DNA of 38,538 nucleotides from Campylobacterales bacterium (GTDB taxonomy: Bacteria; Campylobacterota; Campylobacteria; Campylobacterales; Sulfurimonadaceae): contig JAPLGN010000008.1 of NCBI GenBank assembly GCA_026390135.1, positions 1-38,538 on the forward strand. The letters are read 5' to 3'. The translations under genes and the position numbers were made by a program. Numbering within the stretch: the first letter of the stretch is position 1; each line of letters begins with the position of its first letter. A model generated the notes under the pieces. That model searched no databases and had not been told where the DNA came from. It was given only the letters and a program-made list of their open reading frames with translations. This document shows, piece after piece, positions 5,494-38,538 of the stretch.

Positions 5494-5502
5494 GGCTCAA
5501 AT

Positions 5503-8415
5503 ATGACAAAAGTAATGAACAATAATCGTCGTGATTTCCTGAAAGTTTCAGGGATGACGGCTGCATTGGTGGCTTCACAAGGTTCACTTTTCGCAAAAAC
5601 AAATGTAATGTCGGTTGAAAACGGGAAAGAAAATTACCCGAATACCAACTATACTGAAAGCATGTATCGCAACGAGTTTGCGTTTACGTACGGTAAAAAA
5701 GAAGAGCATGGTTTCGCGTATCACTGTGTAAACTGTCAAGGTAACTGTGCATGGGAAGTTTGGTCAAATAACGGTGTAGTTACCCGTGAAAACCAATCAG
5801 CTCGCTATCCGGTTATCAATGCAAAAATCCCTGACTTCAACCCACGCGGATGTAACAAAGGGGTTCAGCACTCTCAGGTAATGTACCAAAAAGACCGTTT
5901 GTTGTATCCAATGCAGCGTGTTGGTGAGCGTGGTGAAGGTAAATGGAAACGTATTAGCTGGGATGAGGCGGCTGAGGTCGTATGTCAACAAATCTTTGAT
6001 TGTATGACAGACCCTGAGCGCGGACCGGATAAATTGATGGTTCATGCGGGAACAGGTCTTTTGACTGAAGGTCGTCGTGGCGCTCCATTGCGTTTCTCGA
6101 CTCAATTGGGTGCGATTCGTATTTATCCTTCTTCTTACCTAGGGGACATGTTCTCAGGTGCTGCTATCGCATACGGTGAAGGTAATGTTGGTTGTACATG
6201 GGATTTCATGTATACCGTCGATACGGCTGTTATGTGGGGCGGAAATCCATCGGTTTCTCGTATTCCTGATGCTCACTTTGTATGGGAAGGAAAATACAAC
6301 GGGGCGAAAGTCATCGTTATTACCCCTGAGTTCAATGCAACGGCTAAATCCGCGGATCTTTGGATTCCAATCAAAGCGGGTTCAGATAACATCCTCGCAA
6401 TGAGTGTTATGAATGTTATCATCAACGAAAAGCTTTATAAGCCAGAGTTTATGAAAACGTTTACCGATCTTCCGTTCTTGGTCGATGTGAAAACGCAAAA
6501 AATGATTCGACGCTCCGATATGGAACATGCGGCAAACGAAGAAGATCATCATAAATATGAAGAACAATTCTACAGTATGAACAAAGCAACAGGAAAAGCT
6601 GCTTTGATGCCGGCTACTGAAGGAAGCGCAATCAAATCGCTTCGTCTTGATGAACAAGGTATCGAACCTGAGCTTGAAGGGTCATGGACGATTACCGATG
6701 TCGATGGGAATAAACGCCAAGTTACTACTGTATTTGAAATGCTCAAAGCATCAGCGGCAAAATTTGCTCCTGAAGCAACCAAAGATATTACAGGGGTTCA
6801 TCCAGATACCGTTCGTGTCCTTGCACATGATATTGCATTGCCGAAAGTCGTTGAGATTACAACCGGTTTCTCTCTCAATAAATATTTTAATGGTGTAATG
6901 TCAATCTGGAATATCTCCTCTATTTGTGGATTAACAGGGCGCATGGGACCATACGGCGGATTAAATACTGAAAATGAATTTACCCTTTCCGGTCTTGGCG
7001 TATTGGGTGGATTTAGCGGTAAGTACAATGCTCGTTTTGGTTCTGGTTTTGTTGGCGAATTTGTCTTCGGCGATGGAATGAAATCATTTGATAAATTCTT
7101 CAGTGATGAAGACGTTAAACGTGCACAAAACGGTATGTCTAAAAAAGAGTATATGGCAGTATTGTCAGAAATGCTCAAATCGGGTGAAAATGATAAAGTC
7201 AATCAAGCGTCCAAACATGGTAATGTTAACAAGCCATGGTGGCAGCCTGATTGTGCTCTTATCGTAGCCGATTCTAAATTCCGTCGCAACAAAGGTTCTG
7301 AATACCGTAAAGCATTTTTGGAAAAAACGAAGTTTTATGCGTACGTGGACTATCGTATGTCTGAAGCTGCACAATTTGCGGATATTTTACTTCCTGCAAA
7401 ATCGCACTATGAAGTTTATGACCTTCGTACGTCTCCGGGTTACCACCGTTTTACGAATCTTGCACAGCCGGTTGCGAACATCAAGAATATTGGTGAGTCA
7501 ATGGATGAGTGGTCAATGTTTACCCTTCTTGCCAAAAAAATGGAAGAGATGGCAAACCGTCCTCAAAATATTGCCAAAGCAAAAGTACCTGATCATAAAA
7601 AATATGCAAAACCTGGTTTCCATGATTTGACTATTTTCCACAAAGAGTACACGAATACCGATCCAGAATCTGAAGGGGCTGGTGAAAACTACCTCGGAAC
7701 TGATAAGATGGCAGTTCAAGCAGCATTGGAAAAATGTGAGCAGTACGAGCCATGGACGATGGAAAAAATGTACAAAGTGGGCGGATTCTTGCTTATCAAT
7801 GAAAAAGCAGCGAAAAGTTCACCTTTGTATTCTGATCGCCCGTACAGCTCTATGGAGTTTACCCTTTATAAATTTGAGCGTCTTGAAACACTCTCTGGTC
7901 GTCAAACATTCTATGTTGACCATGAGCTGTATATTAAGATGGGTGCAGCAACCAATACAGGTATGGAAGGAATCCGCCCACAAAGCAAAGATCATCCATA
8001 CGTGTTTATGACTCCGCACGCTCGTTGGTCAATTCACTCTAACTATAAAACATCACGTACGCTTCTACGTTTGCAACGTGGTGTTCCTGCAATCCAAGTA
8101 AATCGTGTGGTTGCAGAGTCTAAGGGAATTAAAGATGGAGAGACTATCCGTATTTTCAATCACCAAGGTGAGTTCTATGCAATGGCAAAACTCTCTTCAT
8201 CTGCACCTGCTGATGGATTGGTTCTTGAGCATGGATGGGAACCGTACATGTATTTGAAAAACAAAGGTCACAATGAGGTCGTTCCTGTCGCAATGAACCT
8301 TTTGGAAATGGCTGATGGCTGGGGTCACCTGAAATTTGGTGGTCTGTGGGATGGTAACCAATACGCTTACGATGGTGCCGTGAACTATGAAAAAGCAACT
8401 GACGTAAAATATTAA
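5503..8415 (+). CDS. Type II DMSO-reductase-family molybdopterin oxidoreductase, catalytic alpha subunit
   Basis: A 970-residue bis-MGD molybdoenzyme, exported folded by Tat: 'NRRDFLK' at residues 8-14 precedes a hydrophobic stretch. The FS0 cluster motif has His as first ligand (His74, Cys78, Cys82, Cys117), typical of the NarG/SerA/ClrA/DdhA/EbdA/PcrA group (type II). Asp215 in 'YLGDMFSG' aligns with the Mo-ligand Asp of NarG. 'WGGNPSVSRIPDAHF' and the C-terminal dinucleotide-binding domain ('HARWSIHSNY') support this. The length is near SerA and ClrA (about 910-920) and far below NarG (about 1250). It sits in an operon with beta and gamma subunits and no NarI-like anchor, so a soluble periplasmic complex is expected. 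The substrate cannot be told: selenate, chlorate and dimethyl sulfide enzymes belong to the same group, and the upstream rhodanese favours a sulfur compound. Confidence 0.93.
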   Translation: MTKVMNNNRRDFLKVSGMTAALVASQGSLFAKTNVMSVENGKENYPNTNYTESMYRNEFAFTYGKKEEHGFAYHCVNCQGNCAWEVWSNNGVVTRENQSARYPVINAKIPDFNPRGCNKGVQHSQVMYQKDRLLYPMQRVGERGEGKWKRISWDEAAEVVCQQIFDCMTDPERGPDKLMVHAGTGLLTEGRRGAPLRFSTQLGAIRIYPSSYLGDMFSGAAIAYGEGNVGCTWDFMYTVDTAVMWGGNPSVSRIPDAHFVWEGKYNGAKVIVITPEFNATAKSADLWIPIKAGSDNILAMSVMNVIINEKLYKPEFMKTFTDLPFLVDVKTQKMIRRSDMEHAANEEDHHKYEEQFYSMNKATGKAALMPATEGSAIKSLRLDEQGIEPELEGSWTITDVDGNKRQVTTVFEMLKASAAKFAPEATKDITGVHPDTVRVLAHDIALPKVVEITTGFSLNKYFNGVMSIWNISSICGLTGRMGPYGGLNTENEFTLSGLGVLGGFSGKYNARFGSGFVGEFVFGDGMKSFDKFFSDEDVKRAQNGMSKKEYMAVLSEMLKSGENDKVNQASKHGNVNKPWWQPDCALIVADSKFRRNKGSEYRKAFLEKTKFYAYVDYRMSEAAQFADILLPAKSHYEVYDLRTSPGYHRFTNLAQPVANIKNIGESMDEWSMFTLLAKKMEEMANRPQNIAKAKVPDHKKYAKPGFHDLTIFHKEYTNTDPESEGAGENYLGTDKMAVQAALEKCEQYEPWTMEKMYKVGGFLLINEKAAKSSPLYSDRPYSSMEFTLYKFERLETLSGRQTFYVDHELYIKMGAATNTGMEGIRPQSKDHPYVFMTPHARWSIHSNYKTSRTLLRLQRGVPAIQVNRVVAESKGIKDGETIRIFNHQGEFYAMAKLSSSAPADGLVLEHGWEPYMYLKNKGHNEVVPVAMNLLEMADGWGHLKFGGLWDGNQYAYDGAVNYEKATDVKY

Positions 8416-8424
8416 GGGGTTTAG

Positions 8425-9522
8425 ATGTCTAAAAGACAATTAGCAATGGTCATGGACCTGAACAAATGTATCGGGTGCCAAACATGTACTGTGGCATGTA
8501 AAACGCAGTGGACGAATCGTAATGGTCGTGAATATATGTATTGGAATAATGTCGAGACCTATCCGGGTACGGGTTATCCTAAAAACTGGATGGAGCTTGG
8601 TGGCGGATTTGACGCTGCTGGCGATCTTCAACCGGGAGTTATTCCTAATCTTGAAGCCGATTATGGGGTTCCTTGGGATTATAACTATGAGTCTATCATG
8701 ACGGAAAGTGCTGAGCACAATCATTTTAAACCACACGTGTCACCTACATGGGGACCAAACTGGGATGAAGACCAAGGTGCGGGTGCATTCCCACAGGATA
8801 ACTATTTTTTCTATCTTCCACGTATTTGTAATCACTGTACAAATCCGGGTTGTTTGAGTGCGTGTCCTCGTGATGCAATCTTCAAGCGTGAGCAAGATGG
8901 TGTTGTTTTAGTTGACTTGGATCGCTGTCAAGGATACCGCTATTGTATTGCGGGATGTCCTTACAAAAAAATCTATTTCAATCCAAAAATCTCTAAGTCA
9001 GAGAAATGTATCCTTTGTTTCCCACGTATTGAGCAAGGTTTGCCACCAGCGTGTGCACAACAATGTGTCGGTCGTATCCGTTTCGTAGGGTTCTTGGACG
9101 ATGAAGAGTCACAAGTTTACAAATTGGTACACCAATACAAAGTAGCAATTGGTTTACGTCCTGATTACGGCACACAGCCAAATGTATATTATGTTCCACC
9201 GACCGAATCTCCGGCTAAATTTGATGCTGAGGGAAAAATCATCGAGGGATCAACACGTCTTCCAATTGAAGAACTTGAAAAACTCTTTGGACCTGATGTT
9301 CACGCGGCGATCAAAACGTTGAAAGACGAGATGAAGAAACGCAAAGAGACAGGCGTGAGTGAACTTATGGATATTTTGATTGCGTATCAACATGCGGATA
9401 TGTTCCGTTTGGATAACAATTATTATCAAGAAGTTGCAAAAGAGCAAAAACGTACACCATTGGCACCTGTAGATACTCGCTACCTTGCCGGTAAATTTAC
9501 GAAAGCGGGAGGACACCACTAA
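8425..9522 (+). CDS. Four-cluster Fe-S beta subunit of the type II molybdoenzyme
   Basis: A 365-residue electron-transfer subunit of the NarH/SerB/ClrB/DdhB type. Four cysteine groups are visible: Cys15/18/21/25, Cys135/138/143/147, Cys168/174/178 and Cys195/198/210/214. The third group has Tyr171 where a cysteine is expected, which in NarH relatives (Trp there) gives a [3Fe-4S] cluster. So three [4Fe-4S] and one [3Fe-4S] are expected. There is no signal peptide; in this family the beta subunit is carried through Tat bound to alpha. A good AAGGGG precedes the ATG, nine bases after the alpha stop. It moves electrons between the Mo site and the gamma-subunit heme. Confidence 0.94.
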   Translation: MSKRQLAMVMDLNKCIGCQTCTVACKTQWTNRNGREYMYWNNVETYPGTGYPKNWMELGGGFDAAGDLQPGVIPNLEADYGVPWDYNYESIMTESAEHNHFKPHVSPTWGPNWDEDQGAGAFPQDNYFFYLPRICNHCTNPGCLSACPRDAIFKREQDGVVLVDLDRCQGYRYCIAGCPYKKIYFNPKISKSEKCILCFPRIEQGLPPACAQQCVGRIRFVGFLDDEESQVYKLVHQYKVAIGLRPDYGTQPNVYYVPPTESPAKFDAEGKIIEGSTRLPIEELEKLFGPDVHAAIKTLKDEMKKRKETGVSELMDILIAYQHADMFRLDNNYYQEVAKEQKRTPLAPVDTRYLAGKFTKAGGHH

Positions 9523-10724
9523 TGAATAAGATTTTAACATCACTCCTTTCATTGGGTCTTGCATGTTCGGCTGCGCTTGCTGCTGAGGCAGCAATCACTG
9601 CTGTTAAAGTTACGGATAGTTTAGACGGTATCAAAGCAGATTCGGCTATTTGGTCAAATGCTAAGTTTTCGACTATTACTCTTTATCCGCAAACTGCAAT
9701 CGAAATGAATGATAAAAAAGCGAATGAATTGACTGAAAATGCAAAAGCAAAAAAAGCTCAAGTCGCAGCACTGTATGATGGCAAAAATATTGCCTTGATG
9801 GTTAAATGGGCGGATGGATCTAAGGATCTACAATCTGGCTATGCATCAACAACGTACAGTGACGGTTTCGCAGTTCAATTTGCAGGCGCTACAGCCAAGC
9901 CTCAGCCCTTGCCATACATAGGAATGGGTTCAGTCGGACGTCCTGTCGTTGTGCATCTCCAAAAAGCGAATGAAAAAGTATATGAGCCAAATGGAAATAA
10001 AGATGTTGGCAATCAAATAAATCGTCAACAAACAGGTGTATTTGGTCAAGAATTGGCTGATTTTGATGCAAAAGTTGCATCACTTGCTGTGACAGATTAT
10101 GAGCGTATTTTTGTGGGTGAAGGATTCCGTTCATTGACTGAAGTCAAAGATGGATCGATTAAATCCAATAGTTCTATGGTATATGGTGCCAATGGATGGA
10201 GCGGAATATTAACCCGTTCTCTTAAAGATGACTATGTTAATCTCAGCGGAACCGTACCCGTTTCCATCGCAGTATGGGATGGGTCAAAAATGGGTCGTAA
10301 CGGACTTAAAAATCTTTCGTCTTGGATTGCTATCAATCTTGACGGACAAAAACAAAATGCAGCAATGGTTACCGATTTGACAACCGATTCTAAAGGGGAT
10401 GCGAGCAAAGGTAAAGCAGCCCTTGAAGCAAACGGTTGTAACGGCTGCCACCAAATGAATGCAGCTGATCCTAAATCGTTTATGGCTCCTTCACTTAAAA
10501 ATGTAGGTGGATATTCGACCGCTGCTTATTTACGCGAATCCATTCTAAAACCATCAGCAGTGGTTGTTCCAGGGTATAATCGTAATGCACACAGCAATAC
10601 ACCATGGTATAATCTTGAAAAAGGGAAGCGTATCTCTACAATGACGGATTACAGTCATTTGGACAAAGCGACAGTTGAAGACATCGTAGCTTACCTTAAA
10701 ACGCTCAAAGCGGAGGTAGAATAA
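9522..10724 (+). CDS. Heme-binding gamma subunit fused to a C-terminal cytochrome c domain
   Basis: A 400-residue protein with a Sec signal peptide (cleavage near ALA-AE, residue 20). Residues about 25-285 resemble the ethylbenzene-dehydrogenase gamma family (EbdC/SerC/DdhC/ClrC), which binds one b heme through Met and Lys; Met135 ('YIGMGS') and Lys263 ('GLKNLSSW') are candidates. Residues about 292-400 form a monoheme cytochrome c domain with 'CNGCH' (Cys306, Cys309, His310) and candidate distal Met321. The usual gamma subunits are about 230-270 residues without this domain. The start overlaps the beta stop (TAATG). The fused c-type heme probably lets the complex exchange electrons directly with periplasmic c-type carriers. 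Confidence 0.88.
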   Translation: MNKILTSLLSLGLACSAALAAEAAITAVKVTDSLDGIKADSAIWSNAKFSTITLYPQTAIEMNDKKANELTENAKAKKAQVAALYDGKNIALMVKWADGSKDLQSGYASTTYSDGFAVQFAGATAKPQPLPYIGMGSVGRPVVVHLQKANEKVYEPNGNKDVGNQINRQQTGVFGQELADFDAKVASLAVTDYERIFVGEGFRSLTEVKDGSIKSNSSMVYGANGWSGILTRSLKDDYVNLSGTVPVSIAVWDGSKMGRNGLKNLSSWIAINLDGQKQNAAMVTDLTTDSKGDASKGKAALEANGCNGCHQMNAADPKSFMAPSLKNVGGYSTAAYLRESILKPSAVVVPGYNRNAHSNTPWYNLEKGKRISTMTDYSHLDKATVEDIVAYLKTLKAEVE

Positions 10725-11122
10725 TGAAAAAATTTGTACTACTATGCGCAGCACTTGTTGTTGGCGCATTTGCAAGTGAAGGTCAAGAGTTCGAAGGATT
10801 GTTGACAACTCCAGCGTGTGCTGCTCAAGGTGCATTTAACGACTGTTACTTAGAGAACTACACCTGTGGTTCTGACGGTTGTTTTAAGAAAATTGAACCA
10901 GGCGAAACAACGCATCCAAAGCTGGCTCTTTTCCAGCACGGAACGGGTAAAGTATACTATATCGACACCACAAAACTAAAAGTTTCAGAGCTGGGTGAAG
11001 GGATGAATAAAAACGGTGTTATCATTACAGGCGTACTTGATGAAGCAACCAATACAATTGCAGCAACTGAATTTAAAGCTCCACCACCACCGAAGAAATC
11101 ATTTTTCAAAGGGTGTTTATAA
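10724..11122 (+). CDS. Small secreted Cys-containing protein of the molybdoenzyme operon
   Basis: A 132-residue protein with a signal peptide (cleavage near AFA-SE, residue 17). After cleavage it has five cysteines: Cys32, 41, 48 and 53 clustered near the N-terminus, and Cys131 as the next-to-last residue. The C-terminal tail is rich in Pro and Lys. There is no CxxCH, so it is not a cytochrome c. The start overlaps the gamma stop (TAATG), so it is coupled to the enzyme genes. It takes the position held by delta or extra subunits in related operons, but I do not recognise the family. Roles as an accessory subunit, a sulfur carrier or a metal carrier are all inference. Confidence 0.75.
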   Translation: MKKFVLLCAALVVGAFASEGQEFEGLLTTPACAAQGAFNDCYLENYTCGSDGCFKKIEPGETTHPKLALFQHGTGKVYYIDTTKLKVSELGEGMNKNGVIITGVLDEATNTIAATEFKAPPPPKKSFFKGCL

Positions 11123-11132
11123 AAACACTCTC

Positions 11133-11150
11133 CAAGCCCTTCGGGGTTTG
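11133..11150 (+). terminator. Possible terminator or attenuator after the structural genes
   Basis: CAAGCCC and GGGTTTG pair around a TTCG loop, followed by TCTTTATT. The short T-rich tail suggests partial termination, which would keep the chaperone and ferredoxin genes at lower expression than the enzyme subunits. Confidence 0.5.
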
Positions 11151-11231
11151 TCTTTATTGACTAGTTTTTCTCGTTAGGGTAAATCGAAGCCCTCCTGTGA
11201 CACAATCCCTTACTTTTTTTAGGAATAATAC

Positions 11232-11801
11232 ATGAATACTGAATATCGACGTTATATCTATGCCTTTTTATCGCGCGTAATGAGTAATATCCCCGATCGT
11301 CGTTTTATCACTGACCTCAAAAATAATCAACAATTGCTCGAGGTTATTGGTGAGGAGACGAAAGCATGGTTTGATACCAGCAGTGAAGAAGAGCTCTATG
11401 ATGCATTGAATACTGATTATACCTCGATGTTTTTTCTTAATACACAGCCTGTTGAATCGTTTGTTTTGGATGCCAAAAATGAAACGCTTGTAGGATTGCA
11501 GAATCCGGTAATGGCATTTTATTTTACGCACGGTTTTGAGCTTAATATGGATCAGACTGAACTAATGGCGCCGGATCATCTTTCTATTGAGCTTGCCTTT
11601 ATGCAGATGCTGGTTTTTAGAAATGAAACAAATGCTCAGGTGAAGTTTATGGAAGAACACTTATTTATGTGGGTTATACCTTATATGCTGGGGATGAAAA
11701 GTATGGCAGGAACACCTTTTTACAGGGATGTATGTGATTTTATGGTTGAGTTTCTAGCATCTGATTATGAATATTTACATCAAGAGATTAGCAATGGGTA
11801 A
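11232..11801 (+). CDS. TorD/DmsD-family molybdoenzyme chaperone
   Basis: A 189-residue, mostly helical cytoplasmic protein without a signal. It has the TorD-family marks: 'PDHLSIELAFM' at about residues 115-125, then 'EEHLFMWVIPYM' about 25 residues later. This family binds the Tat signal of a molybdoenzyme and holds it for cofactor loading. Its place 110 bases after the structural genes points to the type II enzyme here as client. An AGGAAT precedes the ATG. A CACAAT at 11201-11206 could be a weak -10, so it may also be transcribed on its own. Confidence 0.85.
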   Translation: MNTEYRRYIYAFLSRVMSNIPDRRFITDLKNNQQLLEVIGEETKAWFDTSSEEELYDALNTDYTSMFFLNTQPVESFVLDAKNETLVGLQNPVMAFYFTHGFELNMDQTELMAPDHLSIELAFMQMLVFRNETNAQVKFMEEHLFMWVIPYMLGMKSMAGTPFYRDVCDFMVEFLASDYEYLHQEISNG

Positions 11802-12879
11802 TCATAATTTTATTCAAACAAATAACCTTTTTAGTTTCACGGCAACGCGTTGCTTGCGTAATGAGTATTTTCACAATGATTGTCATATCTGTATTGATTT
11901 ATGTCCTAAGGATGCTATTCATTTAGTGCGCAATAAATTGACACTGTTTGATAATGAATGTATCGAATGTGCCGGATGTATTGGAAGTTGTCCTACGGAA
12001 GCCTTCGAGATTGAGAGTTTTGATCCCAATGCATTTTCGGTATCTTTTCAGACTCAAACAAACCCTCAGCTCTCTTGTAAGAGCACAACCCCATGTTTGG
12101 GTGTATTTGACTCAGAGCATCTGCTTGTGATGACGCTACGGGGTGAATTGGAGGTTGTGTGTGACATGAGTCATTGCGCTACCTGCGTCTTGAATGAAAA
12201 TGGAAAGATGGAAGAGACGATTCGTTCGCATATTGATCAAGCTAATAATTTTTTGGTTCAAATTGAAGTTGACAAGAAAATTGAGATCCTTGAAGTTCAT
12301 GAGGAGCAAGAACCACGCCGTGCCCTTTTTCGCAAAGGATTAGAAAAAGTAAAAGAAGCAGTAGCGGATGCTCCACGAGTACAAAAAAGTATGACGGCAT
12401 CCCATCATGCCCTTCCCAATATGACTATGCCTCTTAAGAAAGTACTGTTAAGAAATAGTCTTAAAGATGTAGTGACAGCGATGGCGGTAACTGGCTTTAC
12501 AGAATCTTCACCGCTCTTTTTTAACAAACAAATTGCTTTTGACCTGTGTACGAATTGCGGTGATTGTACTCAATTTTGTCCGACGGATGCATTGTTTCCA
12601 ACATCCGACAAGCAAGGGATCTATTTTAGCCAAGGTAAGTGTATCGGATGCGGGATATGTGAAGATATATGCAAGCCCAATGCCATCACGGCTAAAGCCG
12701 GATTTGATATGGTAAGTATTGCATATGAACGTTCTGAAGAGCTGGTTCATTATGAAATGGTAATGTGCAATGAGTGTCGTTGCCCGTTCCCTTATAAAGG
12801 CGGTGACCCAGTTTGTGATCGTTGTTCCGGCTATAAAAAAGAATTTACTAATATGTTTACTCTAGCTCGGGATATCTAA
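11794..12879 (+). CDS. Cytoplasmic multi-cluster ferredoxin with C-terminal zinc-ribbon-like motif
   Basis: A 361-residue protein with two separate pairs of ferredoxin motifs. The first pair is 'CHICIDLCP' and 'CIECAGCIGSCP' (about residues 30-67); the second is 'CTNCGDCTQFCP' and 'CIGCGICEDIC' (about 250-295). A last CxC and CxxC set near residues 325-350 looks like a zinc ribbon or rubredoxin knuckle. The middle part has further cysteines ('CKSTTPC' and 'CDMSHCATC'). There is no signal peptide, so it is cytoplasmic, unlike the enzyme. The frame is open to 11767, but the ATG at 11794, overlapping the chaperone stop, is the likely start. It may supply electrons or Fe-S clusters during enzyme maturation; this is inferred from its pairing with the TorD-like gene. 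Confidence 0.85.
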   Translation: MGNHNFIQTNNLFSFTATRCLRNEYFHNDCHICIDLCPKDAIHLVRNKLTLFDNECIECAGCIGSCPTEAFEIESFDPNAFSVSFQTQTNPQLSCKSTTPCLGVFDSEHLLVMTLRGELEVVCDMSHCATCVLNENGKMEETIRSHIDQANNFLVQIEVDKKIEILEVHEEQEPRRALFRKGLEKVKEAVADAPRVQKSMTASHHALPNMTMPLKKVLLRNSLKDVVTAMAVTGFTESSPLFFNKQIAFDLCTNCGDCTQFCPTDALFPTSDKQGIYFSQGKCIGCGICEDICKPNAITAKAGFDMVSIAYERSEELVHYEMVMCNECRCPFPYKGGDPVCDRCSGYKKEFTNMFTLARDI

Positions 12880-31287: not shown

Positions 31288-32403
31288 TTGTTAATCATTA
31301 ATTCTACTGTAATTCCCAATGGAGACTCTGATCTCGGGGATAATCTTCTTTATTACGACTACAATATCGGGCATTTACTCTCGCTCCAAGCCAAAGGGCA
31401 GACGATGGAAGATGAATCGTATGTCAGTGCTTTTCGTTCTTTTGAGGGTGAAGTGTATGAGAACTACATCTATGAAAAGCTTCTTCGTTACGCGGAAAAT
31501 GAACCTGAAATTAAAAGTTTTATTATTAAAGGGCCGCACAAAAATCGCACCCATGCGCAAAGCGATGCCCTCTCTGTAAGCTGGAAAGGGCAGATTATTT
31601 ACCGTGCCCGCCATAAAGAAATTGGAGAATTCGACGGACTTCTTTTTACCGATAAAGAACTGTATTTTATGGAAATGACTCTGGTGAAATCGGCAACGAG
31701 CCTCAAAAAACGGCTTCGTAAGAAACGGGCACTTTTGGAAGTTTTATTTCCTCGCTATAACGTCAGGGCTGTTTTAGTTCTTAACGAAGGTGCGACGGGA
31801 ACGACCGATTTACCCCCATATGCCAGCGTATGGTTTACCGAAGCATACAGCGCACAACATTTGCTGGAAAGCCTCAGTACCAATGCACCTAAAGCGCCAA
31901 TGGTTCGGATTCAAAGCGATAAAATTGCCCATGCAGAAGAGATTAAAATTGCATCCTTTAAATACTACGCAACACTATCATGGATGTTGCGCTCTCTTCG
32001 CGGGGGCAAACCGATTGATTGGGATTTCTTCCGTAAAAGTGCCACGCAGCGCTATCATGATATTTACACAAAAGTCTATGTCGGATATGTGAGTATAGAG
32101 GATTTTAAAGCCATTGTCCCCTCTGTGCAGTTTGAAAACTCTGGGGCAACACGTGCTATTGTCGCCATTGAAAAAGATCATACGGGCGGCTATTTTCTTA
32201 CCTATTTCCTCCGACATTCGGGCAAAAAACTTGATAATGTAACGGTTACCGCTGGTGTTGCCAAGGTAGCTAAAAAAGATCCGCTAGGAATTACTCTCAC
32301 TGAGATGAATCATTTGGATAAAATGATGGATGAGAGTTTTGCGCTAACGCTCGAGCAGCATGTTGAAATAGAAAAAACACTCAAAACGATCACGCATAAG
32401 TAA
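31288..32403 (+). CDS. Unknown protein with a possible degenerate PD-(D/E)XK fold
   Basis: A 371-residue soluble protein. 'EIGEFDGLLF' followed after ten residues by 'LYFMEMTLVKS' has the D...E-x-x shape of PD-(D/E)XK nucleases ('D-x(n)-E-x-K'), but Thr replaces the usual Lys, so it may be inactive or not a nuclease at all. It begins with TTG at 31288; AAAGG lies six bases before it, and no ATG fits. This is the only TTG start in the window that I consider well supported. It ends at a good terminator. Function unknown. Confidence 0.6.
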   Translation: MLIINSTVIPNGDSDLGDNLLYYDYNIGHLLSLQAKGQTMEDESYVSAFRSFEGEVYENYIYEKLLRYAENEPEIKSFIIKGPHKNRTHAQSDALSVSWKGQIIYRARHKEIGEFDGLLFTDKELYFMEMTLVKSATSLKKRLRKKRALLEVLFPRYNVRAVLVLNEGATGTTDLPPYASVWFTEAYSAQHLLESLSTNAPKAPMVRIQSDKIAHAEEIKIASFKYYATLSWMLRSLRGGKPIDWDFFRKSATQRYHDIYTKVYVGYVSIEDFKAIVPSVQFENSGATRAIVAIEKDHTGGYFLTYFLRHSGKKLDNVTVTAGVAKVAKKDPLGITLTEMNHLDKMMDESFALTLEQHVEIEKTLKTITHK

Positions 32404-32426: not shown

Positions 32427-32521
32427 ATTTAAAATTCATAAACCCCTTGTATTCTTCGTAAAAAACACCTCATTTACTTTTGATAGGTTACACTTTTGAA
32501 GAATTACATATAAGGACAGTT

Positions 32522-32980
32522 ATGAAAAAAGTTGTTATGCTTGCTCTTGTTGCGATGAGTCTTTTTGGAGCTCCCTATAAGATGGGGCAATCGGTTATGC
32601 CGTTGGATTTACAAGATCAGTTTGGAAAAAAAAGTACACTTAAAGTGATGCCAAAAACATTGATTATGGCGTTTGAAAAAGGGACAGGGGCAACGGTCAA
32701 TGAGTATTTGGCAACGCAGGATAAGGGATATTTAAAAAAGAACAACGCAGCCTTTGTTGCGGATATTAGTCAAATGCCCAATTTTATCACCGAAGCATTT
32801 GCCCTACCAAAAATGCGTAAATACGCTCATACAGTTTTGCTGATTCGGGATGAGGAGCAAGGGTTACGATTCCCTGCCCAAGAGGAGAAAATTACGGTGA
32901 TGAAATTTCGGGGCAACTTTCTGACTCAAATCGAATTCGTTTCCACCGCAACAGAACTAAAACAGGCGATTGATCAGTGA
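32522..32980 (+). CDS. Exported redoxin-like protein lacking cysteines
   Basis: A 152-residue protein with a signal peptide (cleavage near LFG-AP, about residue 16). The layout ('QSVMPLDLQDQFGKKSTL', then 'KTLIMAFEKGTG', then 'HTVLLIRDEEQGLRF') resembles a thioredoxin-fold or peroxiredoxin-like domain. There is no cysteine anywhere in the mature part, so it cannot be a thiol redox enzyme and more likely binds a ligand. The frame is open to 32480, but AAGGAC before the ATG at 32522 sets the start. It begins the six-gene operon; its stop overlaps the next start (TGATG). Confidence 0.7.
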   Translation: MKKVVMLALVAMSLFGAPYKMGQSVMPLDLQDQFGKKSTLKVMPKTLIMAFEKGTGATVNEYLATQDKGYLKKNNAAFVADISQMPNFITEAFALPKMRKYAHTVLLIRDEEQGLRFPAQEEKITVMKFRGNFLTQIEFVSTATELKQAIDQ

Positions 32981-34056
32981 TGACTCCGATCAAGGCGCTT
33001 AGAAAAAATCGCTTTAAGACAGCACTCATTTTTATGAGCATGAGTGTTTCTATCGCGGCAATTTTTCTCATTAGCGCTATCTCGGGAGGGGTCGTAAGCA
33101 TGTACTCTGCGATGCTCAAAACGGATGGGGACATTATCGTCACGCAAAAAGGGATTGCCGATACTTTTTTCAGTGATATTAACCGTTCAATGGTAGATGA
33201 GATTGCCAAAATTGAGGGGGTACGTGAAGCAGGTGCCTTGATTTTAGGGGCTGCACCCGTTGAGCCACTCCCTATCGTAGGAATTTATGGGGTGAGCGAG
33301 AACCGTTTTAAAAGTTATACTTTGATACAAGGCTCTATTCCAAACAACGGAGAAGTCATCCTGGGTTCTAAAATCTATGAGACGCTCAAGCATCCCAAAA
33401 CAATTAACCTCTCCAAGCAAAAATTTGTCGTAAGCGGTGTGTTTAAAAGCCGCATTGGATTTGAAGATGGCGGGGTGGTGATGAATTTACACGATGGCGG
33501 AGTATTGTTCCATAAAAGTGCATCAATTTTTTTGATAAGTTTGAATGATTTGGCAAAAAGTGATAGCATTGTAAAAAAAATAAATGCTTTAAACCCGGAC
33601 ATAGAAGCCAAAACCACAGACAGCTTCATCGATTCCTATAATCAGTTTAAAATCATAAAAACCAGTTCGGATGTGATTGGAGCAATGGCATTTTTGATGG
33701 GAATTTTGGGAATTGTGAGCATGATGAGCATGGTGGTCAATGATCGTAAAACCGAGTTTGGAATTATGCGTTCCATCGGATTATCCTCGATAGTTATTAT
33801 TCGAAAACTTTTAGCGGAAACATTGATTATTGCATTGGTGGCATTTTTCTTCGCTTTGGCCGTATCGCTTGGTGTCCTCGATGCTGTAGAACATGCAGAT
33901 AAATTTCAAGGTTACATCAACGGTGAGATCACTGTTTCATTGGCGATCAATGTTTTCGTGGTCTCAGTAGTGATGGCGATGCTGGGGACTTTGCTTCCTG
34001 CGATTTATGCTGCTCGCATTGATCCGATGACGCTGATACAGCGAGGTGGCTCATGA
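32980..34056 (+). CDS. ABC transporter permease, MacB/LolC-type (FtsX domain)
   Basis: A 358-residue permease with four helices: one near residues 14-35 and three near 235-260, 280-305 and 325-345. A periplasmic domain lies between the first and second. 'MSMVVNDRKTEFGIMRSIGLSS' is the FtsX-family coupling region, and 'PAIYAARIDPMTLIQ' is the usual end. This class moves substrates out of the inner membrane rather than across it (lipoproteins, lipids, or periplasmic loads as in MacB). It overlaps the next gene by ATGA. The ATG at 32980 overlaps the upstream stop and is preferred over the GTG three bases before it. Confidence 0.9.
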   Translation: MTPIKALRKNRFKTALIFMSMSVSIAAIFLISAISGGVVSMYSAMLKTDGDIIVTQKGIADTFFSDINRSMVDEIAKIEGVREAGALILGAAPVEPLPIVGIYGVSENRFKSYTLIQGSIPNNGEVILGSKIYETLKHPKTINLSKQKFVVSGVFKSRIGFEDGGVVMNLHDGGVLFHKSASIFLISLNDLAKSDSIVKKINALNPDIEAKTTDSFIDSYNQFKIIKTSSDVIGAMAFLMGILGIVSMMSMVVNDRKTEFGIMRSIGLSSIVIIRKLLAETLIIALVAFFFALAVSLGVLDAVEHADKFQGYINGEITVSLAINVFVVSVVMAMLGTLLPAIYAARIDPMTLIQRGGS

Positions 34057-34688
34057 AAATCCAAGCCAAAAATATCGAGCAGTATTATGGGATTGAGCAT
34101 GTTCTGCGCGGTGTCGATGTCTCCATTGAAGCAGGAAGTTTTACGGCGATTATCGGAGAAAGCGGGAGCGGTAAAACCACTTTGTTGTCGATTCTCTCGA
34201 CCTTATTAAATCCTACGAGCGGAGAAGTGACTTTTGATGGAAAGGGTATCGGCGAGTTAGGAAACATTGATGTATTTAGACGGCATAACATCGGATTTGT
34301 ATTTCAGTTTCACTATCTCATCTCCTATTTGACGTTGCGTGAGAATATTGCCCTTTCCGCATTGGATGATGCTACGGTTGAGCCGCTTATGGAGAGTTTG
34401 GGGATTGGACGGTTAGCCTCTCGTTACAGCGATGAAGTTTCAGGAGGTGAACGTCAGCGTGCTGCTATTGCACGTGCTCTAGTCAATCATCCTGCTGTGG
34501 TATTTGCTGATGAACCAACGGGTAATCTGGACACGAAAAATGCGTTGGGCGTGTATGAATTGTTCAAGCGCTACGCGCAGGAGGGGACGGGATTTGTGGT
34601 CGCTTCCCATGATAAAAAAATAGCCGAGTATGCCGATACAATAATTGAAATGGAGGATGGAAAAATTGTCAAAATTTCTAAACGATAA
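34053..34688 (+). CDS. ABC transporter ATPase, LolD/MacB type
   Basis: A 211-residue ATPase with Walker A 'GESGSGKTT', Q-loop 'FVFQFHYLI', signature 'SGGERQR' and Walker B 'VVFADEPTGNLD'. The short length and the GNLD ending are those of LolD/MacB/FtsE relatives. It pairs with the permease at 32980. It overlaps the start of the oxidase-like gene in another frame by about 30 bases, which is tight coupling. Confidence 0.95.
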   Translation: MKIQAKNIEQYYGIEHVLRGVDVSIEAGSFTAIIGESGSGKTTLLSILSTLLNPTSGEVTFDGKGIGELGNIDVFRRHNIGFVFQFHYLISYLTLRENIALSALDDATVEPLMESLGIGRLASRYSDEVSGGERQRAAIARALVNHPAVVFADEPTGNLDTKNALGVYELFKRYAQEGTGFVVASHDKKIAEYADTIIEMEDGKIVKISKR

Positions 34689-36201
34689 TCTCCCTCTTCT
34701 TTTGTTCTGGCTCTTTCTAGGGCTTTTTTCGGGACTGGTGTACGCAGTAGAGATGTTGGGATTGGATGGTTCCATGACTCTTTTTTCTCCTGAGAGAGCA
34801 CGGTCACTCCATATTTCACAAATGTTGTACGGCTTTTTTCCACTGATCCTCTCATTGCTGCCCTTTGCTCTGTTTGAGAAAGAGGGTGTTTTAAGTCAAA
34901 ACGGTTTGAAGCATTTAGCGCGATACTTCGTCGTTTGGAATGCTTTTTTGCTCTTTATGAGCATGGCACTTCTTTTCGGAAATATTCGAGGATTACCCTT
35001 TTACGATTTTCCTTATCAGTTGAATTTTCTCCTCGCATTTAGCGGGTTATTTTATCTTTTGGCGCTTTTGGATGCCTTGAAGCGTTATGAAAAACGTCCA
35101 GTATGGGTGAATGTATCCCTTTTAGCGGTTATCGCAGCCCCCATTGCATTAGTAGTTTTGATGAATCCACAATACGGTCAGGTGGAAAAAACTCTCGTAG
35201 GCCCGCATGGGGACAATACACTGGGGATGAGTTTCGCTCTTATCCCGATTTATTATCTGCTCATTAAACTCTCTGCTCAAAAAGTGTTTACGCCACGTCT
35301 CCATTGGTTGTGGAGTATTCCATTGGCAGGATATGTTACTTCGCTGATAATTCGTAATTTTTTCCACACTTTAAGCTACAACGAAGAGTGGTTTTTTCAG
35401 TATTTGACGTTGTTGTATCTGCCGCTATTATGGATTTGGCTTCGGGATGCGGGAATACAATTTAAAACAAATCCCTATCTCATCCTATCGATTGCGGCGT
35501 TTATTTTTGTCGATGTTGAGGGAAATATCCTTTTTATTCCTGAACTTCGAGCACTGATACATCGTAACGATTTGGTAGTAGGACATGCGCATATTGCCAT
35601 GGGTTTGGGGGTAGCGTTTATGGCACTCTCTATAGCCTACCATCTTTTGCCATCGCTTTTTAAACGGGTGTACGCAACACTTTGGACCCTTCTGATTAGC
35701 TTAATGGCATTATCTCTTTCCCTCGCGGGTCTTATTGAAGCGGGATTGATTGGTGGAACCGTTGAACCATTTTTGATCATGCGTGCTATTTTTGGGGTCA
35801 TGATTGTTGTTTTAGTCGCAAAAATACTGTATGACCGATTGATTATCCCTATCAATACCCCATTAAAAATCTATCATTTGGTAGGGTTTTTAGGGGATGC
35901 ATTTGGCGGGTTGGCTTTGCTGATTGCAGGAGGCTGGCTTTTTGGATTGCTCGGATTTGCATTCGCCGGAACGTATGAGTATGTTGTATTCGCTTTTGTT
36001 ATGGGAACCGGCATTATTCATTGGTTTGGGCTTCACGGTGATGAAAATCGTCTTGCGAGTATCAGTGCGACGATTCGTTTACTCATCTCTTCGACGTTCG
36101 CTTCTTTGTATCTGGCAGGAATCTTGGACACACTGGCATTGCTTATTGCCTTGTATGATGGTATTTATGCGATGATTTATTTTCTTTGGTTGCGTAAATA
36201 A
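34657..36201 (+). CDS. Heme-copper oxidase subunit I homologue lacking CuB ligands
   Basis: About 514 residues with some 12-14 membrane helices. It aligns by eye with CcoN of cbb3 oxidases. 'RSLHISQMLYGF' (His52) matches the helix II heme-b ligand. 'DLVVGHAHIAMGLG' (His310, His312) matches the CcoN segment 'DWTIGHVHAGALGW' with both helix X heme ligands. 'VDVEGN' matches the conserved glutamate-glycine before it. But the CuB sites are lost: CcoN 'YGHNAVG' is 'HGDNTLG' here (residues 184-190), and the 'HHLHYT' pair is replaced by 'NFFHTLSY' (234-241). So it probably binds heme but cannot be a copper-dependent oxygen or NO reductase. The start is uncertain: ATG at 34657 directly after GGAGG, or TTG at 34666 with better spacing. 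NnrS is an alternative relative. Confidence 0.8.
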   Translation: MEKLSKFLNDNLPLLLFWLFLGLFSGLVYAVEMLGLDGSMTLFSPERARSLHISQMLYGFFPLILSLLPFALFEKEGVLSQNGLKHLARYFVVWNAFLLFMSMALLFGNIRGLPFYDFPYQLNFLLAFSGLFYLLALLDALKRYEKRPVWVNVSLLAVIAAPIALVVLMNPQYGQVEKTLVGPHGDNTLGMSFALIPIYYLLIKLSAQKVFTPRLHWLWSIPLAGYVTSLIIRNFFHTLSYNEEWFFQYLTLLYLPLLWIWLRDAGIQFKTNPYLILSIAAFIFVDVEGNILFIPELRALIHRNDLVVGHAHIAMGLGVAFMALSIAYHLLPSLFKRVYATLWTLLISLMALSLSLAGLIEAGLIGGTVEPFLIMRAIFGVMIVVLVAKILYDRLIIPINTPLKIYHLVGFLGDAFGGLALLIAGGWLFGLLGFAFAGTYEYVVFAFVMGTGIIHWFGLHGDENRLASISATIRLLISSTFASLYLAGILDTLALLIALYDGIYAMIYFLWLRK

Positions 36202-36203
36202 CA

Positions 36204-37151
36204 ATGCTGATTGTTGTTCTTAGTTCTCAGCTTCTCTATTATCTCTTGATCGCGCAGACGGGAGTAGTCGGGGCATTTAATTCGCATCTCCACGATCTCT
36301 ATACTCTTCCTATCGGCGGGGTGCTCGGAAGCTTGCTTGCCGCATACTGGAAGCACCTAGAAATCAAAGAAGAGCTTTTCTTTATGTTTGGTACTCAGAT
36401 TATGATTTCGTGGTTTTATCCCGATTATTCACTGGGAGTCCTGTTGGCTTTTGGATTTATGATAGGGTATACAACTCCTTTGATGCTCTATGTCTTTCGT
36501 GAGCAAAGCCGGAAAAATCTGGCATGGGGACTTGCGCTTTCGTACGCGGTAGGAACAGCGCTGTATACGTATCCGTTCCAACAACGGGGGATTATAGCGA
36601 TTGTTTTACCCACTATTTCACTGATAGCGCTCTATTTTTCGACACTTCCAGCGAAATCACGGAGTCAACCCCATGCGATGAACTGGACAATGATCGGCGT
36701 GATGATGGTGTGGATTTTTGCAGATTCCGCGTTGTTTGAGACGTTGAGTCGCTCAGATGAGATGGATATTTGGGGTCATTATACGACATTGATTATTGTA
36801 TCTCATCTTTTAGGAGTTTATTTAGCGTTTCGTTATGGGAAAACATTGATGAGAAGTACATGGGTAATACTGGGGCTTTTTGCCATAAGCTATGGCGTCT
36901 TTTATGCTCATCAGCCGATAGTGCTTGCTGTTATCTATCCGATTGTTATTTCATTCTATAATGTTCTACTATTTCGTGAGTTGACCCAGATGGGAGATGT
37001 CCGTAGTATCGGAATTGCCATGGTGGGGGTAGGCTGGGGCGCATCGTCGATGGCAAATTTGGTCGCGCTCGATCACCAGCTTTGGATTAGCATCGTTGTT
37101 TTAGGAGCTTTTGCTCTTATTTATCCATTTTATTTTAGGAGAATCGTATGA
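36204..37151 (+). CDS. Polytopic membrane protein, unknown
   Basis: A 315-residue protein with about ten helices, somewhat like a short MFS-type fold, but with no diagnostic motif. 'SHLHDLYTLPIGG' near the N-terminus holds two histidines that could be functional. It starts three bases after the oxidase-like gene and overlaps the YceI gene by ATGA. It is probably part of the same membrane system. Confidence 0.75.
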   Translation: MLIVVLSSQLLYYLLIAQTGVVGAFNSHLHDLYTLPIGGVLGSLLAAYWKHLEIKEELFFMFGTQIMISWFYPDYSLGVLLAFGFMIGYTTPLMLYVFREQSRKNLAWGLALSYAVGTALYTYPFQQRGIIAIVLPTISLIALYFSTLPAKSRSQPHAMNWTMIGVMMVWIFADSALFETLSRSDEMDIWGHYTTLIIVSHLLGVYLAFRYGKTLMRSTWVILGLFAISYGVFYAHQPIVLAVIYPIVISFYNVLLFRELTQMGDVRSIGIAMVGVGWGASSMANLVALDHQLWISIVVLGAFALIYPFYFRRIV

Positions 37152-37675
37152 AAAAAGTAAGTCTCGCAGTGTTAGCTTTAGTTGCATCAATGTATGCCGG
37201 TAATTTGAGTTTTGAATCAGGTGTTATTAAAGCCCATACTGAAATGGTTGCCGATAGCACCATTGATCCATTCACTAAAAAAGCAACGTCACATTTAGTC
37301 ATGGAGGCCAATCCTTCAACGCTCAAAGGCTCCATTGAAATATCAATGAGTGATCTTTACAGTGATAATAAAAAACGTGATGAACATATGCAAGAGACAG
37401 TAGAATCTTCACTGTTTCCAAAAGCGGTATTTGAAGTCAAAGATGTAGTAGCCAAGAGCGGAGACAACTATACCCTAAAAGGTACGATGAGTTTACACGG
37501 TGTGACTAAGCCGATGAGCTTTGATGGAAGTATCGTTAATGAGGGGAATAAAGTTCGTATTAAAGCAACAAGCAGCATGAAAATGTCCGAGTTTGGAATT
37601 ACACCGCCCAGCATGATGTTTATGAAGGTACGTGATCAAATTGATCTGAATGTGGACGTTTTACTCAAACGATAA
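37148..37675 (+). CDS. YceI-family periplasmic protein
   Basis: A 175-residue protein with a signal peptide (cleavage near MYA-GN, about residue 17) and a lipocalin-like YceI domain. Marks are 'VDSTIDPF'-like ('ADSTIDPFTKKAT'), 'KRDEHMQETVESSLFPKAVFEV' and 'KGTMSLHGVTKPMSF'. YceI proteins bind polyisoprenoids such as ubiquinone-like lipids. It is the last gene of the operon, which makes an isoprenoid or quinone cargo for the neighbouring ABC transporter plausible. Confidence 0.9.
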   Translation: MKKVSLAVLALVASMYAGNLSFESGVIKAHTEMVADSTIDPFTKKATSHLVMEANPSTLKGSIEISMSDLYSDNKKRDEHMQETVESSLFPKAVFEVKDVVAKSGDNYTLKGTMSLHGVTKPMSFDGSIVNEGNKVRIKATSSMKMSEFGITPPSMMFMKVRDQIDLNVDVLLKR

Positions 37676-37828: not shown

Positions 37829-38538
37829 ATGTTGAGAACAATAATAATTGGGAAAAAAATAGCGGGTGTAACACAGCTTACACAGCAAATGGTTATGAGT
37901 GGTGATAAAATTGTTTTGGTAGATGAAGCAGGGCATGCCCCCAAGCATATAACAACTAAAATGGTAGGAAAAGACCTTCATATTTTTGCAGATGGTATGT
38001 CTGAGCCTTCCGCTATTTTGAATGATTATTCTTCGTTTGAAAACTCAGTACAGATACAAGGACTCGATCAAGGTGGCGCATACTATGACTATACGGCAGC
38101 ATCGGGAGGGATGGCACTATCCTCGACTCCGGTGGTCGCACCGGTTGCAGCTCCTACTCCTGTTATGTCGACGAGCGCATGGTGGGGTGTTGGTATCCTG
38201 GCGGTTGCGGGCGGAGTTGCTGCGGCAGCAGGTGGCGGAGGCGGCGGAGGCAGTAGCACGACAACAGTTCCAGCAGCCACAACATTAACCGCAAGCTTAG
38301 TCGATAGCTTGGTTTCGGGGGTATCCTATACAACGAGCAGCGGGCTTACAGGTGTTACACTTGCTGATGGATCACTTACGTACAAAACGGGTGATATAGT
38401 AACCTTCAAAGTCGGCAATGCGACGATTGGCACATTCAATACTGCCAATATCAATCCAGATCATATTATTACTATTCAGGAAATTGCGGGTGTAGCTCGA
38501 ACCAACACAACTGATACAAAAGTTGTCAATATCGCCCA
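37829..38538 (+). CDS. N-terminus of a large repetitive surface adhesin (partial)
   Basis: An open frame of 236 codons running off the right edge, so it is partial at its 3' end. The first 90 residues resemble the BapA/LapA-type N-terminal retention region ('GVTQLTQQMVMSGDKIVLVDE'). A Pro/Ala stretch follows, then one hydrophobic segment 'WWGVGILAVAGGVAAAA' and a Gly-rich hinge of seven glycines, as in large type I-secreted adhesins. The last 70 residues ('SLVSGVSYTTSSGLTGVTLADGS' in part, with 'YKTGDIVTFKVG' and 'HIITIQEIAGV') look like the first copy of a repeated extracellular domain. A type I secretion system would be expected nearby, beyond the window. Confidence 0.8.
   Translation, partial: MLRTIIIGKKIAGVTQLTQQMVMSGDKIVLVDEAGHAPKHITTKMVGKDLHIFADGMSEPSAILNDYSSFENSVQIQGLDQGGAYYDYTAASGGMALSSTPVVAPVAAPTPVMSTSAWWGVGILAVAGGVAAAAGGGGGGGSSTTTVPAATTLTASLVDSLVSGVSYTTSSGLTGVTLADGSLTYKTGDIVTFKVGNATIGTFNTANINPDHIITIQEIAGVARTNTTDTKVVNIA

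Follow-up and report, generated by a model that had tools for sequence, protein, structure and literature searches.

A CuB-less homologue of heme-copper oxidases encoded in a conserved gene cluster with candidate lipid-handling proteins in Campylobacterales

Within a 38,538-nucleotide stretch of DNA from a Campylobacterales genome (hereafter the window), a cluster of six open reading frames (ORFs) at positions 32522–37675, all on the same strand and either overlapping or 2 bases apart, encodes a 514-residue homologue of heme-copper oxidases (HCOs) together with a two-gene ATP-binding cassette (ABC) transporter, a protein of the major facilitator superfamily (MFS) fold, a YceI-family protein and a 152-residue protein. 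We determined that the HCO homologue belongs to a family, present in five Campylobacterales families of the sample, that keeps the heme half of the oxidase active core, drops the copper half, and resides in a gene context suggestive of lipid handling; according to one published account, a histidine sextet is a signature of heme-copper oxidases (PMC3413370). The reading that we favour, with confidence somewhat short of even, is that the locus specifies a cell-envelope system for the upkeep of membrane lipids, in which the CuB-less HCO homologue would be the redox protein and would work in the manner of the LcoA–BcnA pair of Burkholderia cenocepacia. Among the matches listed for a search of the open-access literature, to which subscription papers and preprints were outside scope, no title or start of an abstract described this family or cluster.

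An oxidase homologue that keeps the heme ligands

By its predicted structure the 514-residue protein is an HCO-fold protein, closest to CcoN. Its score against the Pfam family COX1 just exceeds the cut-off (34.9 versus 34.8 bits), so that CuB-less genes of this kind are easily miscounted as oxygen reductases, and 27 of the 29 family members scanned match COX1 at an E-value of 0.1 or better. When the AlphaFold model (predicted local distance difference test score, pLDDT, 79.5) was submitted to Foldseek, ranks 1–7 were cbb3 oxidase chains (E-values of 1.1e-5 to 5.9e-5, template modelling (TM) scores of 0.56–0.63), followed by cytochrome c-dependent nitric oxide reductases (cNOR) and ba3 oxidases. 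Profile comparisons of the family gave E-values of 3e-10 against 22 CcoN-type sequences, 2e-4 against 10 cNorB sequences, and 2e-15 against the two sets combined. The CcoN set consists of 16 Campylobacterota sequences and six plasmid loci, two of which (L189 and L192) are unannotated, L192 being 28% identical to Campylobacterota CcoN. The hhalign match to CcoN extends to about residue 403 of 514 and leaves a C-terminal part beyond it. While a search of PDB sequences with the single protein returned nothing relevant, the family profile retrieved Rhodobacter capsulatus CcoN as its only match (E = 3e-4). In a tree of 68 HCO sequences, the CuB-less family forms a single clade (support 57) whose branch is very long (3.1), and CcoN and cNorB are grouped (support 89); because the gNOR outgroup is non-monophyletic, we do not trust the root and deep order of this tree.

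To describe residue conservation, 106 tblastn alignments of at least 440 residues were reduced to 67 distinct relatives by dropping translations with stops or X as well as contained or identical ones, and conservation was tabulated at 27 chosen positions. His52, His310 and His312, which an earlier sequence-only reading of this DNA had named as retained heme ligands, do align with the heme ligands of CcoN and are unchanged in all 67 relatives, from which two b-type hemes can be predicted for the protein. Equally invariant are His184, Asp186, Asn187, Tyr226, Arg233, Tyr241, Glu244, Trp245, His302, Asn304 and Asp305.

The copper side differs. The segment HGDN (His184-Gly185-Asp186-Asn187) is found in 67 of 67 relatives, and its aspartate aligns with the CuB histidine of CcoN helix VI. 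In helix VII, the position of Ile232 is occupied by histidine in 15 of the 67 relatives and that of His237 in 34, and none of the helix VII positions examined carries an invariant histidine in these sequences. The register of this helix against CcoN is ambiguous by the three routes used: hhalign pairs His237 with the first CuB histidine, MAFFT pairs the CuB histidine pair with positions 231–232 (numbered from M1), and counting back from the conserved tryptophan leads to Phe235/Phe236. Since Asp186 is invariant and no register offers a conserved helix VII histidine pair, we regard the absence of the CuB site as a trait of the family. The sequence-only reading, which held that the three CuB histidines are missing, is thus borne out for helix VI and for the absence of an invariant histidine in helix VII, whereas its residue-by-residue pairing in helix VII is ambiguous; no alignment placed a conserved set of histidines at the CuB positions.

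The protein is also distinct from the oxidases and reductases with which it might be confused. The genome's own CcoN is encoded at a separate locus (contig C11, L060), carries YGHN and GGHH, and has a cytochrome c subunit behind it; likewise, cNorCB is encoded elsewhere (contig C5, L061). The HCO homologue shares with CcoN its fold, the heme ligands of helices II and X, and the HRND/HFTD segment, but it is without the CuB ligands, has no CcoO or CcoP in its cluster, possesses the extra C-terminal part, and scores 20.6 bits with the curated ccoN model TIGR00780 (cut-off 583.15). None of the six cluster proteins contains a CXXCH motif. Together with the family-wide loss of the CuB ligands and the presence of separate CcoN–CcoO and cNorCB in the genome, this upholds the earlier view that the protein is not a respiratory oxidase.

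An identity with gNOR, which has been proposed as the nitric oxide (NO) reductase of Sulfurimonas, Sulfurovum and Persephonella and has a cupredoxin as its second subunit (PMC8756737), was considered and rejected: the profile match is poor (E = 0.1), the motifs differ, and the two proteins coexist. The proteins of 551–570 residues that we recognise as gNOR-like by motif and taxon contain GLDLVADG and SHH (L177–L183 carry SHH), and they occur together with the HCO homologue in genomes G153, G218 and G101, the gNOR-like match in G101 being split across two contigs. Both families belong to the HCO superfamily, occur in the same order and have an aspartate in place of the helix VI histidine, a residue given for gNOR as an active-site residue in a published table (PMC8756737); gNOR, however, keeps the helix VII histidine pair (SHH), which the CuB-less family does not have. 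The second ‘CcoN’ of S. denitrificans, S. autotrophica and Sulfurovum NBC37-1, reported to cluster with sequences of Aquificales and Actinobacteria (PMC4584964), is provisionally taken here as a gNOR-type gene. NnrS was rejected as well: no NnrS match was among the Pfam families matched by the 29 members scanned. Plasmid-borne relatives were limited to 70-residue matches to ccoN-annotated genes in three records. Separately, L184, L185 and L186 encode proteins of about 410–422 residues with weak COX1 matches and WVHLFLLGF/KAHI-type motifs that are possibly NnrS-like.

The invariant proximal heme ligand, and acidic residues that by alignment lie near the former CuB site, would also suit a gas-reactive enzyme or sensor. 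In such a protein, a metal other than copper would be bound by Asp186, Glu244 and a histidine, in the way of FeB in NO reductases, or the high-spin heme would be left free, and NO, O2 or superoxide would be reduced or sensed with electrons from menaquinol. We consider this unlikely. The aspartate of the gNOR-like proteins does indicate that acidic replacement at the CuB site occurs in the superfamily, but gNOR retains the SHH histidines. Electrons could be fed by proteins with nine CXXCH motifs, the ORFs of which directly adjoin the cluster in two of 49 neighbourhoods, both of distant relatives (L058:2685-5195, 836 residues, divergent; L104:2981-4753, 590 residues, co-directional); however, only five of the 49 have any CXXCH ORF at a distance of up to 5 kb from the HCO gene, and none was seen in the other 44. 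In one locus, L038, a separate CcoN-like match some 6 kb upstream has two CXXCH ORFs behind it. Moreover, several genomes with the HCO homologue already encode cNorB or gNOR-like proteins, and the recurrent companions that could be identified are lipid-type rather than nitrogen-type.

A conserved linkage with lipid-type genes

Of 397 genomes sampled from the phylum, 60 encode the HCO homologue, representing 18 of 68 genera and five families; as the scan of genome contigs reaches close relatives only, these figures hold within Campylobacterota. In a collection of named genomes, all 28 HCO loci carry titles of Sulfuricurvum, Campylobacterales, Campylobacterota, Epsilonproteobacteria, Sulfurovaceae or Helicobacteraceae. 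The 60 include genome G483, in which the HCO frame (C1:1208661-1210187) contains eight stop codons and the linked phosphodiesterase frame is shortened to 205 residues; the former is likely a pseudogene, and in this genome the cluster seems to be undergoing decay. Annotation of neighbouring genes covered chosen ORFs, and fourteen named control genomes were screened for COX1, YceI and PF01292.

Across 49 neighbourhoods including the window, the MFS-type gene accompanies the HCO gene in 49, yceI in 48, the ABC pair in 47 and the gene for the 152-residue protein in 34. (Two of these neighbourhoods, L054 and L096, probably represent the same contig, their lengths being equal at 374213; our alignment A2 includes both, A7 only L054.) The co-occurrence of all six genes, which the sequence-only reading had put forward as a check, therefore holds for the ABC–HCO–MFS–YceI linkage and only in part for the 152-residue protein. 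The exceptions to the linkage are L057 and L059, which begin inside the cluster at contig ends, and L099, which is split. Gene order varies: the MFS-type gene and yceI stand ahead of the permease gene in L098, L100 and L104, and the gene for the 152-residue protein is either first or last. That the linkage persists across such changes argues for a shared function.

The transporter had been described as a lipoprotein-type exporter, and it does combine, as LolCDE and MacB systems do, a MacB_PCD–FtsX permease with a LolD-like ATPase; however, the cluster has a single permease, its proteins score well below the curated cut-offs for LolC/E and LolD, and neither MacA nor LolA/B is among the six genes. 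The earlier assignment of the last gene to the YceI family was confirmed (PF04264); its product matches Escherichia coli YceI (1y0g, E = 7e-8), relatives of which are named polyisoprenoid-binding proteins in the PDB. The 315-residue protein, previously taken to have ten helices, has 13 helical elements in a model built from 29 sequences (pLDDT 91.4, predicted TM score 0.89), and 49 of 50 PDB matches among those listed by Foldseek are MFS-type by title, the title of the remaining one, 9d7x, being uninformative. Although none of 29 members matches a Pfam MFS family, small MFS-fold protein is the name that suits it best in view of the model. The 152-residue protein is indeed free of cysteine, but its description as redoxin-like found no support: searches of Pfam, NCBIfam and PDB profiles gave no supported match.

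In relatives of the window, the cluster is frequently accompanied by one of two hydrolases. Among the matches listed for the 60 genomes, 13 have a NAPE-PLD homologue and 42 a YaeI/LpxG-like phosphodiesterase within 6 kb of the HCO gene, none has both, and five have neither, a class that could hide weak phosphodiesterases. Within 8 kb in the 49 neighbourhoods, the corresponding numbers are 28, 14, 0 and 7. The NAPE-PLD homologue is a hydrolase of the metallo-beta-lactamase (MBL) fold, and the copy in L104 matches the human enzyme at E = 7e-40; unlike the six genes, it neighbours the cluster in relatives, outside the window. In most loci of Sulfuricurvum and Sulfurovaceae it lies behind yceI in convergent orientation; in L098, L100 and L104 it is co-directional. 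The second hydrolase is a calcineurin-like phosphoesterase, which among NCBIfam models scores best with YaeI and LpxG but reaches the curated cut-off of neither. In G153, the genome in which the HCO gene (L099) has no yceI beside it, a yceI on another contig (C30:58353-58745) adjoins the phosphodiesterase gene (C30:58785-59468). A same-genus genome without the HCO homologue, G029, has a NAPE-PLD-type gene (C18:23949-24830) that is 81% identical to the L045 copy.

The mutual exclusion, at a single place, of two metal-dependent hydrolases whose Pfam folds differ suggests that their activities are interchangeable, and phospholipid-type phosphodiesters would be their common denominator. NAPE-PLD is reported to hydrolyse phosphatidylethanolamine to which aldehydes from lipid peroxidation have been added (PMC12214272), and a role of the linked hydrolase in repair would agree with this. 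Taken together, the linked hydrolases, the MFS fold, the Lol/MacB-type ABC pair and YceI point to membrane lipids as the substrate class. The sequence-only reading had proposed a heme- or quinone-handling membrane system; this is compatible with our results, if unproven, while the link to membrane lipids, absent from that reading, is new here.

A putative redox partner for YceI and the competing readings

A precedent is available in B. cenocepacia, where the YceI-type lipocalin BcnA and the cytochrome b561 LcoA limit lipid peroxyl radicals, mutants accumulate lipid peroxides, the two genes are linked or fused, and LcoA is proposed to re-reduce quinone bound to BcnA (PMC9113575). The Campylobacterales cluster resembles this pair in linking a membrane protein that should carry two b hemes to a YceI-type protein; it differs in having an HCO homologue rather than a b561 protein, and in the additional ABC pair, MFS-fold protein and linked phospholipid-type hydrolases. 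The yceJ–yceI genes of E. coli presumably represent the same pair as LcoA–BcnA. In all 12 cluster-bearing genomes examined, several of them drafts, no YceI gene has a PF01292 gene (which we take to be the cytochrome b561-type Pfam family) within 5 kb of it on its contig; the nearest, a below-cut-off match in G218, is 6.0 kb away. With no such protein near YceI, the HCO homologue would be the membrane redox partner, and by this analogy we rate it as an HCO-fold protein without a second metal, the system of which would operate as LcoA–BcnA does without being a member of it.

From the observed parts, their conservation and their linkage, we infer the following scheme. Menaquinol would donate electrons to the HCO homologue with its two b hemes, and the heme at the former active site would pass them to an acceptor that YceI presents, which may be a lipid peroxide, a lipid radical or an oxidised quinone. 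In place of CuB there would be a polar pocket (Asp186, Arg233, Glu244, perhaps His184 and Tyr226/Tyr241). The linked hydrolase would cleave phospholipids that are damaged or altered in their head groups, and the transfer of lipid from one leaflet to the other, or its removal from the inner membrane, would fall to the ABC pair and the MFS protein. A sharper version, in which an HCO lineage dropped its CuB/FeB metal for an invariant Asp-Arg-Glu(-His, Tyr) pocket and, instead of gases, now reduces YceI-delivered lipid radicals, lipid peroxides or lipid-bound quinone as the redox core of a phospholipid-repair machine, appears doubtful to us.

Several observations weigh against a lipid-maintenance function. 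It has been noted that polyunsaturated lipids are not the rule in bacteria (PMC9113575), so that peroxidation may not be the stress involved. The window's own genome, at 82% completeness, has no linked hydrolase, and among the matches listed at the thresholds used (E = 1e-30 for NAPE-PLD) none to either hydrolase came from this genome. The Sulfuricurvum NAPE-PLD gene, being convergent, is not co-transcribed with the cluster, and since the phosphodiesterase scores below the YaeI and LpxG cut-offs, its substrate class is a guess. The nine-CXXCH neighbours make a multiheme cytochrome c partner possible in L058 and L104, and the sensor genes discussed below could mean control by metal, not by oxidants. 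The proposal is built on sequence, models and gene context, with heme and quinone binding as predictions.

The same companions could instead belong to a biosynthetic or export pathway whose product is a lipid or quinone of the envelope: the HCO homologue would carry out a desaturation, a hydroxylation or a quinone reduction, and the ABC, MFS, YceI and hydrolase proteins would assemble and export the product. The MacB/FtsX-type ABC pair, YceI with its relatives named as polyisoprenoid-binding, the MFS fold and the lipid-type hydrolases would all suit such a pathway. However, no transferase, ligase or acyl carrier recurred among the neighbours examined (chosen ORFs, 17 in one set), and HCO folds are not known to catalyse any of these reactions; we therefore hold this explanation, too, to be unlikely. 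A gene for a B12-type radical SAM protein occurs near the cluster in L101.

In L092, CopRS/CusRS-like two-component genes follow the cluster, and homologues of this pair, or of the kinase alone, lie behind it in the other neighbourhoods of family f7 (Arcobacteraceae-like, at a guess) and in L089–L091, L105 and L106. Such genes raise the prospect of a module for heme or metal trafficking or assembly, in which the HCO homologue stores or passes on heme under heavy-metal-type two-component control. We find this improbable: the two-component genes tested fall below curated cut-offs, the six window proteins are without cysteine and CXXCH, and no gene for heme synthesis or cytochrome maturation was found among the neighbours examined.

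If the lipid-maintenance reading is true, the family offers a natural, testable case of how an HCO fold functions without its second metal, YceI proteins have a second, independently evolved partner, and the locus is a candidate for a phospholipid-repair system in bacteria, one with a NAPE-PLD homologue among its parts.

Organisation of the locus and flanking genes

The source genome is Sulfuricurvum-like and 82% complete; by genome scan, its closest named relatives are Sulfuricurvum metagenome-assembled genomes (89–93% protein identity). Features of the cluster are listed in Table 1. Ahead of the first gene, TAYACT is conserved in 13 of 13 aligned upstream regions and is followed by a purine-rich box; this conservation suggests that TAYACT is part of the cluster promoter.

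Table 1. Positions and basis of assignment of features in and directly upstream of the cluster
Feature	Position	Strand	Basis
Likely promoter, -10 TACACT (32489-32494), and ribosome-binding AAGGA (32512-32516)	32489-32516	+	Upstream conservation
152-residue Cys-free protein, family unassigned, probably exported	32522-32980	+	ORF; 34/49 neighbourhoods
ABC transporter permease, MacB/FtsX type, 359 residues	32977-34056	+	Pfam FtsX 59.6 bits and MacB_PCD 44.9 bits, both above cut-off
ABC transporter ATPase, LolD/FtsE/MacB-like, 211 residues	34053-34688	+	Pfam ABC_tran; best NCBIfam LolD, 190 bits (cut-off 307.75)
CuB-less HCO homologue, 514 residues, M1 at 34657	34657-36201	+	COX1 match, predicted HCO fold, CcoN profile match, 67 relatives
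His52, position of helix II low-spin heme ligand	34810-34812	+	Aligned to CcoN helix II ligand; 67/67
HGDN 184-187, Asp186 at helix VI CuB-ligand position	35206-35217	+	Aligned to CcoN YGHN; 67/67
Helix VII region, Arg233/Tyr241/Glu244/Trp245 (CcoN: CuB His pair)	35353-35391	+	Each 67/67; CcoN register ambiguous
HRND...HAH: His302, Asp305, heme ligand positions His310 and His312	35560-35592	+	Aligned to CcoN HFTD...HVH; all four 67/67
Predicted MFS-fold membrane protein, 315 residues	36204-37151	+	AlphaFold model and Foldseek
YceI-family protein, 175 residues, probably periplasmic	37148-37675	+	Pfam YceI, 74 bits

The six cluster proteins contain no cysteine in 1,726 residues, compared with 1.32% in the 29 other ORFs of the window, six of which are likewise free of cysteine. 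In 45 of 47 related loci with flanking sequence, the cysteine content of the operon is lower than that of the flank, the exceptions being L040 and L092 (48 loci were examined, of which L051 has no flank). Envelope proteins are generally poor in cysteine.

Upstream of the cluster, as in most Sulfuricurvum loci, lies a gene for a conserved protein of 371 residues (31288–32403, forward strand), which has no convincing Pfam or NCBIfam match and was not seen next to the cluster in L089–L108. Directly after yceI, an open frame (37829–38538, forward strand) with Gly/Ala-rich and Thr/Ser-rich stretches and an adhesin-like look runs out of the window; in the majority of Sulfuricurvum relatives the convergent NAPE-PLD-type gene stands at this place, which suggests a local rearrangement in the window genome. 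Farther upstream, positions 4375–12879 (forward strand) encode a rhodanese-domain protein, a molybdopterin oxidoreductase of 970 residues, a 4Fe-4S subunit, an ethylbenzene-dehydrogenase-type heme subunit fused to a cytochrome c, and a Cys-rich ferredoxin-like protein, which together probably constitute an enzyme of the DMSO-reductase family.

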